Notes under the pieces: generated by a model
Databases searched by the model: none
The model's input: the letters and a program-made list of their open reading frames with translations, nothing else
What the model was told of the DNA's origin: nothing
From: Desulfuromonadales bacterium
Lineage (GTDB): Bacteria > Desulfobacterota > Desulfuromonadia > Geobacterales > Pseudopelobacteraceae
Assembly (NCBI GenBank): GCA_013349325.1
Contig: DUZX01000001.1
Location: forward strand, 1-64,000
Length of the DNA stretch: 64,000 nucleotides
Direction: 5' to 3'
Position numbers and translations under genes: made by a program
Shown: piece after piece, positions 50,498-62,992 of the stretch
How positions within the stretch are numbered: position 1 is the stretch's first letter
Layout of the letters: each line of letters begins with the position of its first letter

Positions 50498-51796
50498 ATG
50501 AAATGTATCGTAATACTGCTGGTCGTGCTGATGCCGGCGCTGTGTGCCGCCGAGTCCAGAATCCTGACACTTGAACAGGCGCTGGCGATCGCGCTGGATA
50601 AAAATCGCGACATCGAAAAAGCGCGCGAGTATGGGCAGTACGTTCAGGGGAAATATGTCGAGGAACGGGCTGCGGCACTGCCGCAACTGTCGTTAAACGG
50701 TTCGGCCCAGTTTTCAAAAGATGAAAGCCTCAGCCTGATGGGAATCACTGCGCAGCGTCAGTTTGGCCGGTCGCTTGATCTGACCGTCTCTCAACCGCTG
50801 TATACCTGGGGCAAACTGAACGCCGCCATTCGCGCCGCCGAAGTCGGCCTGAAAACCGCCGATCAACAACTGCGGCTGTATCGCCAAGCCGTTTACCGGG
50901 ATGTGACCACCGCCTATTACGATATCCTGCTGGCCAAAGACCTGCATCGCCTGGCGCAGGAAAACCGCGCCCAGAAGTTGCGCCACCTGGAAGAAGCAAC
51001 CCGCAAGCTTAGCGCCGGAGTAGCCACAGATTATGATGTCCTGGCAGCCGAAGTAAGTGCTGACAATAGCCGTCCCGAGGTCATTCGCACGGAAAACAAC
51101 ATCCGGATGGCACGTGAACGGCTTCGTTTTCTCCTCGTTGCAGGGGCTGTAGACTTAGATGTGGCCGGATCTCTGCAAACACCGACTACGACCACCCCTC
51201 TTCCGGCCTCATTTGACGAAGCCTTTACAACTGCGGGAAAACAGCGCCCGGAGCTGTCCGAGCTGCGCTTGCGCATCGGCATCTATGAAGAGCTGGTGAC
51301 TATCGCCGCAGCGGACGATAAGCCTCGCCTCGAAATGAGGGGCGCTGCCGGCTGGCGCTGGGCGAGCCTGAACGACCCTGGTCCGACGCGTGATGGCGAT
51401 GGCGCCGTCTGGAATGTAGGCGTTTATCTGACATTCCCGTTTTTCGATGGTTTACGGACACGCGGCCGCATCACCCAGGCGGAAAGCGACCTGCGCACAC
51501 AGCGGATCGCGGCAGCCAGGCTCCTGGATTCGATCGCACTGGAAGTTCGCCAGGCAGAATTTTCATTTCGGGAGGCAAGCGAGATATGTGCAGCACTGTC
51601 AGGAACGGTAAAACAGGCGGATCGTCTGGTTCAGATGGCAGAAAAGGGCTATGAGTTCGGCGTCAAGATCAGCCTTGAAGTGGAGGACGCTCAGGTAAAC
51701 CTGCTGCAGGCCAGGAGCAACCTGGCCAAGGCGCAGCGAGACTATCACGTTGCCAGAGTCACGTACCTCTGGTCACTGGGGGGAGCGGGGGAGTAG
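50498..51796 (+). CDS. TolC-like outer-membrane efflux channel
   Basis: Outer-membrane protein of 432 residues with a signal peptide (1-19, cleaving after CAA). Two repeated OEP domains rich in long helices (about 60-220 and 240-425) match TolC-family channels. It completes the tripartite system with the adaptor and pump upstream, 17 bases after pabBC. Its final 38 bases overlap the 3' end of the convergent histidine kinase gene. Confidence 0.9.
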   Translation: MKCIVILLVVLMPALCAAESRILTLEQALAIALDKNRDIEKAREYGQYVQGKYVEERAAALPQLSLNGSAQFSKDESLSLMGITAQRQFGRSLDLTVSQPLYTWGKLNAAIRAAEVGLKTADQQLRLYRQAVYRDVTTAYYDILLAKDLHRLAQENRAQKLRHLEEATRKLSAGVATDYDVLAAEVSADNSRPEVIRTENNIRMARERLRFLLVAGAVDLDVAGSLQTPTTTTPLPASFDEAFTTAGKQRPELSELRLRIGIYEELVTIAAADDKPRLEMRGAAGWRWASLNDPGPTRDGDGAVWNVGVYLTFPFFDGLRTRGRITQAESDLRTQRIAAARLLDSIALEVRQAEFSFREASEICAALSGTVKQADRLVQMAEKGYEFGVKISLEVEDAQVNLLQARSNLAKAQRDYHVARVTYLWSLGGAGE

Positions 51797-53789
51797 CTGC
51801 AGAGTCATTCACGCAACGCACCGGCAGCCATACGATAAACTGCGACCCTTTGCCGACAGTACTCTGGACGCTGATCTCACCTCCGTGTCGTTTGACAATA
51901 TTGAAGGTCAGCGCCAGGCCAAGTCCCAGCCCTTTACCGGTGGCCTTGGTTGTAAAGAACGGATCCCAGATCCGGTCGATGATATCAGGATCAATACCGC
52001 TGCCGGTATCGGAAACCTCTACATACACACGTGCCTCTTCGCGGTTGTACTGCGTCGATATCGAGACCTGCCCCCCCTTCTTGATGGCATGATGGGCGTT
52101 GATCAACAAATTCATGAAAACCTGCCGCAAGCCGGACGGGTCACCAAGCAGACTCGGCAGATTATCCTGTAAATCAACCACCAGATCTATCTGGTCATCG
52201 TAGGTCTGATGCCTGAGAAGTTCAAGAATTTCCATCAGAATGGAATTCAGATCAACATTGCCGATCAGACCGTCCGATTTACGACCGAAATTGAGCAGAC
52301 TGTCTATTATCGATTTGCAGTGATATGATTCGCGCACGATAACTTCCAGATACTTTTGAAAAGCATCCAGACGAGGATCGACACCCAGCGTGGGGTCGTC
52401 GCTGAAGCGACGCAGCAGCGCCTCGGCATACCCCGCCACCGATGTGAGCGGATTATTGATCTCATGCGCGACGCCGGTTGCCAGCACCCCGATACTCGAC
52501 ATTTTTTCCGTCTGTATCATCTGCAGTTCCTGAACCCTCTTCAGAGTCACATCCCTCAGAAAGACCAGAGCACGGGTCTTTTCCCCCAGCGAATCCTTGA
52601 TCGGATTGGCAGTGACGTCAATATATCGGGTTTCATGACCTTCCAGCGCATAGACCAGTGACGTTTCGACACGCTCACCGGCGAGTGCCCGCTCTACCGG
52701 ACAGGTATGCGGAGAATGCAGAATGCCATGATGAAAAATATCCCTGCAGGTGCCGTCCATCAGAACTGTTTCCGGGAAAAACTGCGGGCAGATATGATTA
52801 TGATGTTGGATATGACCGTCATTATCAAAGACGATTACCCCGTCATTAACCGAGTCAAAAATGGCCTGCAACTCATTTTTTTTATTGCGCAACTTGACTT
52901 CGCTCTGTTTACGTTCGGTTATATCCTGGGTCGTACCGTACAGTCGAACCACCTGTCTGGCAAAATTGACTGATGGCTCGACAATCGTATAGACCCACTT
53001 CATCGAGCCATCCTGCAGCAGCAGTCGGTGCTCGATTTCATAATTGATGCCCTGCTCTATTCCGCGCCGCAGATAACGCATAACGGTCTCACGGTCATCC
53101 GGATGAATCAGGGCTGCAAACATTTCCTGGGTCGCCTCATCACGCTTTAACCGCATAATGCGCAGCAACTCATCCGAAACGCCCAGATACCCCGACACAG
53201 GATTAGAACTCCAGGACCCGACATGCGACATGGCCTGTGCCTTGGTGAGGTTGTATTCGCTTTCCCGCAGAGCCTCTTCAGCCCACTTGCGCTCGGTGAT
53301 GTCAAGGAGTGCGGCATGACACTCATCCCCCGACTCGCTCGCCATCATATCGATACGCAGATACAGCGAAGGACCACTACTGTTGGCAAGCTTCAGGCGG
53401 CAGGTTTTTTTGTCACGGCAGGAAAAAACGGTCTTCAGAAAACCGGCAAAAGACGCACGGTCTTCAGCAGAGACAAACGGTTCAAAGCGCATCCCGTAGA
53501 GGGAAGAACGCTCCATGCCAAGCAGCGTGGCACCGGTCAGATTAGCGCTCTTGATGCAGCCGGCAGGATCGAGTGTCACATAGCCAATCGGCGCAACATC
53601 GTACAAAAAAGCGTACTTGTTGCGCGACATCTCCATTTCCAGATTGGATTTCCGCAGCTCTTCGATCTGCTGCTCCAGTTGAAGCACACGGATCTGATAT
53701 TTTTGCAGGAGTTCTGACGCCTTCTCGCTGGAGAAGGACGTATGCTCCGCAGCGTCCGGCAGCCGAAGAATATCCAGGTGGGATTCCAT
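51759..53789 (-). CDS. PAS-domain sensor histidine kinase
   Basis: Kinase of 676 residues without membrane helices, so a cytoplasmic sensor. After an N-terminal coiled coil (about 25-55) come three PAS regions (about 60-175, 180-300, 305-420), the second with PAC-type linkage TQDITERKQSE. The HisKA domain holds the phosphorylated His in ATGVAHEINNPLTSVAGYAEALL, separated here by the usual spacing from the HATPase domain DTGSGIDPDIIDRIWDPFFTT with G-box GLGLGLALTFNIV. No response regulator is adjacent, so it is an orphan in this window. It overlaps by one base the stop codon of the GldA-like gene and converges with the tolC gene. Confidence 0.91.
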   Translation of the reverse strand: MESHLDILRLPDAAEHTSFSSEKASELLQKYQIRVLQLEQQIEELRKSNLEMEMSRNKYAFLYDVAPIGYVTLDPAGCIKSANLTGATLLGMERSSLYGMRFEPFVSAEDRASFAGFLKTVFSCRDKKTCRLKLANSSGPSLYLRIDMMASESGDECHAALLDITERKWAEEALRESEYNLTKAQAMSHVGSWSSNPVSGYLGVSDELLRIMRLKRDEATQEMFAALIHPDDRETVMRYLRRGIEQGINYEIEHRLLLQDGSMKWVYTIVEPSVNFARQVVRLYGTTQDITERKQSEVKLRNKKNELQAIFDSVNDGVIVFDNDGHIQHHNHICPQFFPETVLMDGTCRDIFHHGILHSPHTCPVERALAGERVETSLVYALEGHETRYIDVTANPIKDSLGEKTRALVFLRDVTLKRVQELQMIQTEKMSSIGVLATGVAHEINNPLTSVAGYAEALLRRFSDDPTLGVDPRLDAFQKYLEVIVRESYHCKSIIDSLLNFGRKSDGLIGNVDLNSILMEILELLRHQTYDDQIDLVVDLQDNLPSLLGDPSGLRQVFMNLLINAHHAIKKGGQVSISTQYNREEARVYVEVSDTGSGIDPDIIDRIWDPFFTTKATGKGLGLGLALTFNIVKRHGGEISVQSTVGKGSQFIVWLPVRCVNDSAATPPLPPVTRGT

Positions 53790-59838: not shown

Positions 59839-61044
59839 TTACATGCACTGATGGAAGATGCCGATCATGTCCTGCAGACCTGTATCAGTTGGGTTACCTT
59901 CTGTACAGATATCGTTGACGGAGAAGCGCGACAGACCTTCAACGTCTTTCTCAAGCAGACCAAGATCCGTGAAGGTTTTGGTGATACCGAGATCAGCTTT
60001 CAGTTCCAGACAGGCATCAATGAATGCTCTACCGGCTTTCATATCGGACATTCCGCATGTATCAATACCGGCAGCCTGAGCCATCATCTTGAAGCGCTCT
60101 GGGCAAGCCGGGAGGTTGAAAGTCATGACAGGGCCAAGGCCGATAGCGTTGCAGAGGCCGTGAGGAGCATCGTACATGCCGCCCAGAGCGTGAGCCATAC
60201 TGTGAATCAGGCCGAGACCGGCGCTGTTGAAGCTGTATGCTGCAGCCATTTCAGCCCAAACCATAGCTTCGATAGCTTTGTCGTTGTTTCTGTTCATTGC
60301 TGACTGACGCAGGTTGCCGAAGATCAAGGAAATTGCGCTCAGACCAGGACCGTAAGCAGATATAACGCCCAAACGGGAAGTGATAGCTTCAACGCCATGT
60401 GCAAGAGCATCCATACCGGTGTAACCGGCGAGGTCACCAGGCATACACTGATGAATCAGCGGATCGTTGATGGATTTGCTTGGTGTACAGTTCGGATCGA
60501 ACAGAGCCATTTTGTATTTTTTGTCGGTGTGGTTGATGATCGAGAAACAGGAAACTTCTGATCCTGTTCCTGATGTGGTGTTGATTGCGAGCTGTGGAAT
60601 TGTGTTGGCTTTTGTTGCTTTGAAAGCGCCTTCGAATGTACGAACGTCCTGACCATCGTGGCTGTGAACAAGCTTGATTGCCTTACAGCAGTCGTGTGAG
60701 CTACCGCCGCCGAGGCTGATGATACCGTCAAATTTGCCGGCTGCCAGAACTTTTGCGCCTGCCATAACTTCGTGGTCTTTCGGGTTCGGTGTTACTTTAT
60801 CAAACACTTCGGAAGCAACCCCGGCAGCTTTCAGCACGCCCTGGATTGTCTCAACAATGCCGGTACCGCGCAGACCGGTGGTTACAATCAGGGCATTGGT
60901 CATACCAAGTGCTCTGGCATCATTACCAACCATTGTGTGTGCGCCCCAGCCGACATTTACGGAAGGATAAGCGTGCATCATTTTGATCGGGTATTCGAGT
61001 CTCTCGTTCTTAAGGGTCCGTTTAACGTCTTTATTGTGTGACAT
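59839..61044 (-). CDS. Iron-containing alcohol dehydrogenase
   Basis: Group III alcohol dehydrogenase of 401 residues. Start at 61044 (MSHNKDVKR) is chosen for GGAGG eight bases upstream; the frame extends a further 28 codons without a second good site. NAD-binding GGGSSHDCCKAIKLV, iron ligands in GMDALAHGVEAITSR and GLIHSMAHALGGMYDAPHG are intact. Substrate is probably a short primary alcohol or diol such as ethanol or propanediol; not deducible. Behind it on the minus strand is a good sigma-54 promoter (61268-61284). Strong ribosome site and regular codon choice suggest high expression. Confidence 0.93.
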   Translation of the reverse strand: MSHNKDVKRTLKNERLEYPIKMMHAYPSVNVGWGAHTMVGNDARALGMTNALIVTTGLRGTGIVETIQGVLKAAGVASEVFDKVTPNPKDHEVMAGAKVLAAGKFDGIISLGGGSSHDCCKAIKLVHSHDGQDVRTFEGAFKATKANTIPQLAINTTSGTGSEVSCFSIINHTDKKYKMALFDPNCTPSKSINDPLIHQCMPGDLAGYTGMDALAHGVEAITSRLGVISAYGPGLSAISLIFGNLRQSAMNRNNDKAIEAMVWAEMAAAYSFNSAGLGLIHSMAHALGGMYDAPHGLCNAIGLGPVMTFNLPACPERFKMMAQAAGIDTCGMSDMKAGRAFIDACLELKADLGITKTFTDLGLLEKDVEGLSRFSVNDICTEGNPTDTGLQDMIGIFHQCM

Positions 61045-61267
61045 GGGTACTACCTCCTTTTTGAGTGTGTGTTTTTTTGTACTGCTCTTTGATTGCATGA
61101 CATTTATCGTACTATCCAACAGATACAACGATGTAACCGTATGCTGTGCCCTTTTCTGTGGCTACCACCTCCTCATAACCTCGTTTTTTCGGCTCTCTTC
61201 ATAGAGGTGCAAAAGAACCTGATAACTTGTTTTGTTTTTGGTGTGTTCCGAGATACGTATTGTCTTT

Positions 61268-61284
61268 AGCAAGTAGGATGCCAA
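61268..61284 (-). promoter_or_regulatory. Sigma-54 (-24/-12) promoter of the alcohol dehydrogenase
   Basis: On the minus strand the sequence TTGGCATCCTACTTGCT matches the sigma-54 consensus (TTGGCAC-N5-TTGCT form) with GG and GC elements exactly one helical turn plus two apart, the obligatory spacing. It implies a start near 61257, about 213 bases before the coding start. An NtrC-type activator gene lies about 2 kb away in the same orientation. Confidence 0.8.
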
Positions 61285-61393
61285 CTTTTTATAACACATA
61301 ATTACAGTATGTTACACGTTTACCACGTCGTAAGACAGTTTTTGGGAGCAGATGTGGCGTAGACTTATGAAACGGTTTTCTATTGTATTGTGT

Positions 61394-61411
61394 GCAAAAG
61401 GTGCTTTTTGC
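61394..61411. promoter_or_regulatory. Palindrome, candidate activator binding site
   Basis: GCAAAAGGTGCTTTTTGC has arms GCAAAA/TTTTGC and lies about 110-140 bases upstream of the sigma-54 promoter, the usual distance for an enhancer-binding-protein site. The rest of the 61045-61547 gap holds the promoter, this palindrome, and the inverted repeat at 61477, with no gene. Confidence 0.5.
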
Positions 61412-61476
61412 GGTAGGGATATTATCCACACTGGGTACTTTTGCCACATCCTGCCGAATACTGAACAAAAACCTCA

Positions 61477-62708: not shown

Positions 62709-62796
62709 GTAGGGGCGACGCCGTCGGCTCGCCCTGGCCGCAATAGCCGGCTTTACTGTATTTTGCATCAGGGCGACCCACCGGGTGCGCCCCTAC
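62709..62796. repeat. REP-like inverted repeat pair (GTAGGGGCG type)
   Basis: Units at 62709-62735 and 62769-62796 start and end with GTAGGGGCG and CGCCCCTAC, each with internal palindromy (GGGCGACC/GGTCGCCC). The pair faces inward with a 33-base centre and forms a large stem. It lies just upstream of the radical SAM start. Confidence 0.75.
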
Positions 62797-62992
62797 AACA
62801 TTCGCCAGGACATTATGTAGACATTTTCCACATCGTAGACTTTAACCACATAGACAAAATAACACTACAACAACGGGTACTTACATTTTACTTACTCAGA
62901 AAACAACGCTAAGCCACCGTAAATTTTATATTTTTAGCGTGACACACAGCAACGGCACCATCCAATAGTGTAGATTTTTCCTACACCGTCCG

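Follow-up and report, generated by a model that had tools for sequence, protein, structure and literature searches.

A conserved sigma-54 promoter and upstream site suggest a local two-component regulon around an iron-containing alcohol dehydrogenase in a Desulfuromonadales bacterium

Introduction

Circuits of the type considered here are already known from the DVU2394-adh system and from AdhR. In Desulfovibrio vulgaris, DVU2394 is a sigma-54-type two-component response regulator with an adh operon nearby (DVU2405 onward; PMC3333781, PMC4641369), and the present locus would resemble it in that a regulator of this type controls an alcohol dehydrogenase operon encoded close by. The D. vulgaris operon, however, has heterodisulfide reductase genes, unlike this cluster (PMC3333781, PMC4641369), and those descriptions, as far as available to us and compared as descriptions only, mention neither an ErcA-like dehydrogenase in the regulator operon nor a divergent porin operon. 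In Clostridium beijerinckii, the sigma-54 activator AdhR turns on alcohol dehydrogenase genes by binding at sites upstream of them (PMC7017808), a combination of activator and upstream sites also proposed here; AdhR differs in having three such sites, in its connection with solvent production and in belonging to a Firmicute, and the part of that account available to us describes no two-component partner.

Two further systems share individual components with the locus. In the Pseudomonas ErcA-ErcS and YiaY-YiaZ (PP_2683) pairs, which belong to an alcohol-control system, the genes for an iron dehydrogenase and a histidine kinase are transcribed together, and such a pair has been proposed to sense short-chain alcohols (PMC12997753). 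A comparable gene pair occurs here, but the Pseudomonas systems are described with a kinase of hybrid type and a regulator of LuxR type (AgmR/ErbR; PMC12997753), whereas the kinase of this cluster has no hybrid receiver in a Pfam scan, the regulator is a sigma-54 activator of NtrC type and the dehydrogenase scores below the ErcA cut-off. In Geobacter sulfurreducens, an alcohol dehydrogenase is among the RpoN regulon genes supported by both transcriptome and promoter prediction (PMC2725144); the likeness lies in the link to RpoN and does not imply identity with the dehydrogenase studied here, and the relevant passage names no activator or site for that gene.

Results

The window, the whole 64,000-nucleotide stretch of DNA analysed, covers C1:1-64000, and coordinates beyond 64000 carry the prefix C1 (Table 1). 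Using the iron-containing alcohol dehydrogenase ADH1 as query yielded 79 named loci, of which 46 (L009-L054; at least 64% identical) were treated as close relatives. Three of these (L033, L050 and L054) had too little upstream DNA and were left out, leaving 43 for comparison; the distant loci L055-L087 were excluded from the promoter comparison. Promoters in relatives were sought as -24/-12 sites within 450 bp upstream.

Table 1 Coordinates of genes and sequence elements in and next to the window.
Feature	Position	Strand	Basis or remark
ADH1, iron-containing alcohol dehydrogenase, 401 aa	59839..61044	-	PF00465 and PF25137
GGAGGTG stretch, ADH1 leader	61166..61172	-	just after WARAAC-N3-GTTWK palindrome
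WARAAC-N3-GTTWK palindrome, ADH1 5' leader, about +70	61175..61188	-	fits pattern
Sigma-54 (-24/-12) promoter of ADH1, TTGGCATCCTACTTGCT	61284-61268	-	pattern match and conservation
Further conserved block, consensus AAAACTGTTTCAT	61366..61380	-	at most 2 mismatches in 30/41 upstream regions
GCAAAA-N6-TTTTGC palindrome, GCAAAAAGCACCTTTTGC	61394..61411	.	present; probably accidental
Conserved upstream site, proposed binding site (UAS) of the NtrC-type regulator	61412..61441	-	conservation and matrix
Radical SAM protein, 373 aa	61548..62669	-	between regulator and ADH1
Two adjoining sites resembling RTGTRG-N7-CTACAY	62815..62851	-	between regulator and radical SAM gene
Perfect-arm RTGTRG-N7-CTACAY copy, GTGTAGGAAAAATCTACAC	62968..62986	-	just past regulator gene
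NtrC-type response regulator, 463 aa	62993..64000 in window; whole gene C1:62993-64384	-	domain search
PAS histidine kinase	C1:64372-65589	-	just upstream of regulator gene
ADH2, iron dehydrogenase	C1:65589-66761	-	nearest model ErcA (NF041833)

ADH1 retains its candidate iron ligands within the iron-ligand motif, together with the Pfam domains of iron-containing alcohol dehydrogenases; it falls below every NCBIfam equivalog cut-off, so no substrate is assigned to it. The pattern TGGCAY-N5-TTGCW has a single match in the whole window, with the exact -24/-12 spacing claimed by an earlier sequence-only reading of this DNA, and at least one match was also found in 16 of 100 dinucleotide shuffles of the window; the window alone is therefore weak evidence for a promoter, and conservation decides. 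In 40 of the 43 relatives, the ADH1 ortholog is preceded by a site that deviates at one position at most; these relatives share kinship and are not independent samples. L048 has a two-mismatch site at best, L051 and L053 have none within 450 bp, and all three also lack the conserved upstream site described below and show no close copy of the regulator in the upstream DNA available. The -24/-12 region is the best-conserved stretch upstream of the gene, with a mean of 1.2-1.4 bits per base versus 0.04-0.12 beyond -176. Conserved GG and GC elements at fixed spacing, a distal conserved upstream element and an encoded rpoN (PF04552, 216.1 bits) are thus all present, and we conclude from this conservation that the promoter is real and is kept by close relatives. 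Transcription would start near 61257, placed 12 bases past the -12 C, which gives a leader of 213 nt to the ATG and recovers the earlier estimate of about 213 bases between promoter and gene. An Rfam search around the promoter gave three matches at E-values of 10 or less, each far below its gathering score.

The sequence-only reading had also pointed to an 18-base palindrome, GCAAAA-N6-TTTTGC, as the site of the activator and had proposed looking for it ahead of other sigma-54 promoters. The palindrome exists, but its proposed role did not hold up: it is exact in none of the 43 relatives and present within two mismatches in one. Inverted repeats with 6-bp arms and a spacer of at most 12 occur once in the 450 bp upstream (resampled mean 1.6), the exact palindrome occurs at three places in the whole genome versus two for a reversed control, and with up to two mismatches there are four matches in the window versus a shuffle mean of 4.95. 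For the patterns scanned, neither of the two other genomic copies has a sigma-54-like site closer than about 1.5 kb. We rejected the palindrome as an operator and consider it probably accidental; what is conserved instead is the site that directly adjoins it.

This adjoining site (consensus AAATTCCCCACTGTRGATAAAATCCATAGC) is found in 41 of 41 promoters, always 149-161 bp ahead of the -24 box. It agrees with the consensus, itself built from these sequences, at 20 to 29 of 30 positions, and at 24 in the window. With a matrix built from 34 distinct relatives' sites and omitting the window, the window's site scores 37.0 bits. Across 44 sources (817,077 bp), the matrix exceeds 11 bits at 66 places, 65 of which fall within the cluster's regulatory regions: 41 are the ADH1 upstream site itself (40 of them at training loci), 17 lie between the regulator and ADH1 and 7 in the gap between ADH2 and the divergent operon, leaving one elsewhere. 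Within the host genome, the window's site ranks first against the consensus, with one mismatch. Matches with up to three mismatches number 21, the same as in the control, with 4 of the 21 inside the cluster and those outside it at control level; at that scale, therefore, only the ranking favours the site. A further conserved block of the AAAACTGTTTCAT type is mostly found 95-98 bp ahead of the -24 box.

An NtrC-type activator gene about 2 kb away, as the sequence-only reading had it, is indeed present, although the window carries only the C-terminal part of the protein and the gene continues past its end. The whole protein has receiver, sigma-54 AAA+ and HTH_8 (Fis-type) domains, a GAFTGA motif and an aspartate at the expected phosphoacceptor position; it is thus a response regulator encoded beside a histidine kinase, and a role for it as a direct alcohol sensor would be hypothetical. 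The ADH2, kinase and regulator genes overlap or abut on the same strand, in that order, and likely form one operon. ADH2 adjoins the sensor kinase gene, and at 378.6 bits against an equivalog cut-off of 550 for NF041833 we call it only ErcA-like. The divergent operon encodes a 434-aa protein, an SCO4226-like protein (over cut-off) and an AmiS/UreI-like protein whose match is sub-threshold (21.4 bits versus 25). The 434-aa protein, which matches no Pfam or NCBIfam model, is predicted to be a porin.

Within the upstream DNA available, the regulator is encoded ahead of ADH1 (more than 55% identity) in 34 of the 43 relatives. Among the nine in which it was not seen, six (L018, L027, L034, L038, L047 and L051) have less than 5 kb of upstream sequence, just 4.7 kb for L051; L048 has a distant regulator (38%), and L029 and L053 have none within 10 kb upstream of ADH1. 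No match to the regulator was found among viral contigs. This linkage, together with the clustering of 65 of 66 matrix places, makes the activator look dedicated and the regulon local.

The gap between ADH2 and the divergent operon was compared in the window and the 31 relatives from which it could be excised. Allowing one mismatch, a sigma-54 site is present on the divergent side in 32 of 32 and on the ADH2 side in 27 of 32, the window included. The matrix trained on ADH1 sites averages 1.4 bits in this gap versus -17.7 for resampled sequence, with 14 of 32 gaps above the 99% quantile of the resampled sequence and the window's own score (-9.4) below it; the matrix matches here are weak, and shared control is accordingly likely, though less sure than control of ADH1. 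By eye, a sigma-70-like pair of the TTGAC...TATAAT type overlaps the ADH2 sigma-54-like site in L037, L039, L042, L043 and L052, in which ADH2 may therefore have two overlapping promoters.

A second PAS histidine kinase is encoded at 51759-53789, downstream of the ADH1 operon, and in many relatives a similar position is occupied by a homologue of the cluster kinase (about 51-61% identity to the query). Eight distant loci (L057, L066, L070, L072, L078, L081, L082 and L087) have distant iron dehydrogenases with a kinase homologue within about 2-3 kb downstream, so the dehydrogenase-kinase linkage may be wider.

A candidate sigma-54 promoter for the radical SAM gene was rejected, as no site with up to two mismatches precedes it in the window; in 5 of 34 relatives, one with no more than a single mismatch occurs somewhere between the regulator and ADH1. 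The RTGTRG-N7-CTACAY motif, simpler than the upstream-site consensus, was likewise rejected as a genome-wide regulon: allowing one mismatch, there are 57 genomic matches versus 48 for the control, and the longer upstream-site consensus is at control level outside the cluster. Copies without mismatch occur at three genomic places, two of them in the cluster. In some relatives (L009:6970-7977 and L012:7102-8079), a gene that appears MoaA-like by eye, absent from the window, lies between the regulator and radical SAM genes. Two copies of a G+C-rich element, whose conserved ends are CGCACCCGGTGGGTCGCCC ... AGGGCGAGCC.CCGGCGTCGCCCCTAC, occur on the minus strand (62709-62789 and C1:66782-66862), one preceding the radical SAM gene and the other ADH2; the element resembles small mobile or REP-type repeats.

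A second palindrome, WARAAC-N3-GTTWK, has 61 matches in the loci of the 43 relatives (727,077 bp) versus 13 for the reversed pattern. When sorted by hand, 53 of the 61 fall at three places: 22 before the ADH2 -24 box, 24 in the ADH1 leader and 7 rows, from six relatives, before the ADH1 -24 box. Both ADH1 copies fit the pattern in four relatives, 108-111 bp apart, and the window's ADH2 copy (C1:66907-66920) is a variant. A looser form is present in 39 of 41 leaders. In 29 of the 39, its distance from a fixed point at the -24 box is 97 or 98 nt, while the RNA between is hardly conserved. Each base of GGAGGTG is present in 62-72% of the 39 leaders, and the strict palindrome is combined with it in 17 of the 43 relatives and in the window; no reading frame was seen by eye after the window's GGAGGTG. 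Because the motif also precedes promoters, we favour a DNA operator, though it may act in RNA instead. The form TARAAC-N3-GTTWT was rejected as a wide regulon: five genomes contain 0 to 4 matches each, a total below that of the reversed control, and contexts outside the cluster look unrelated. One match of this type, in L146, lies ahead of a gene that we take to be AcoR-like.

Discussion

The arrangement that we consider likely is a small sigma-54 regulon, local and under two-component control, that serves the metabolism of alcohols or aldehydes, in which the regulator would act through the conserved upstream site on ADH1 and probably also on its own and the divergent operons. Sigma-54 polymerase would wait in closed form at the ADH1 promoter; the kinase would phosphorylate the response regulator, which would bind the upstream site and open the promoter through looping. 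The same regulator would probably drive its own operon (ADH2, kinase and regulator) and the divergent operon of porin-like, SCO4226-like and AmiS-UreI-like proteins; such a regulon would be small, would reinforce itself and would deal with a small alcohol or aldehyde. The signal is probably such a compound, because two dehydrogenases are encoded in the cluster and a comparable dehydrogenase-kinase pair of Pseudomonas is a proposed sensor of short-chain alcohols (PMC12997753, in the part available). The earlier description of the regulon as alcohol-responsive is accordingly plausible from gene content, while nothing was found in support of its other suggestion, solvent stress.

Other readings have to be weighed against this one. 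The version in which the activator binds GCAAAA-N6-TTTTGC has in its favour that the palindrome is present at a workable distance upstream of the promoter, but we give it very little credence given its chance-level frequency, both in the 450 bp upstream and in the genome, and its near absence from relatives. Bacteria like this one encode numerous activators of the same class, and the conserved site could be bound by one encoded elsewhere while the neighbouring regulator serves other genes; this would fit L029, which has promoter and upstream site despite having no regulator within 10 kb. We nevertheless consider this improbable, because the regulator is linked to ADH1 in most relatives, because matrix matches cluster around its own genes and because genome-wide matches outside the cluster are at control level. 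Hardly any credence goes to a third reading, in which an ordinary sigma-70 promoter provides most ADH1 transcription and the sigma-54-like site matters little: the overlapping sigma-70-like pairs seen by eye at ADH2 in some relatives would fit it, but the -24/-12 elements are the most conserved stretch upstream of ADH1.

More speculatively, ADH2 might be a sensor enzyme that, by binding or turning over alcohol, drives the co-transcribed kinase and, through it, the regulator, which would then call up ADH1 as the working enzyme along with a dedicated uptake operon. A second protein would bind WARAAC-N3-GTTWK before the ADH2 -24 box and near +70 in ADH1, with six relatives offering it a further site ahead of the ADH1 -24 box, and would perhaps shut the promoter by looping. 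We regard this extension as doubtful.

Relative to the known systems, what is new in the local regulon that we prefer is the upstream site, the presence of an ErcA-like dehydrogenase gene within the regulator's operon and the second conserved palindrome. No paper naming the cluster was found among titles and abstract openings, a scope outside which most subscription papers lie; the available parts of PMC3543383 and PMC12316311 hold nothing on it, and no paper treating ErcA together with Geobacter was found in the literature covered.

For an alcohol dehydrogenase conserved among Geobacter/Pelobacter-type anaerobes, these results provide a defined promoter, a site and a candidate regulator. The role of such dehydrogenases in alcohol sensing is stated to be unknown in the part of the Pseudomonas account available to us (PMC12997753). 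Here, a Pseudomonas-like dehydrogenase-plus-kinase pair is joined to a different class of regulator, and the alcohol-sensing question therefore becomes testable in another lineage.
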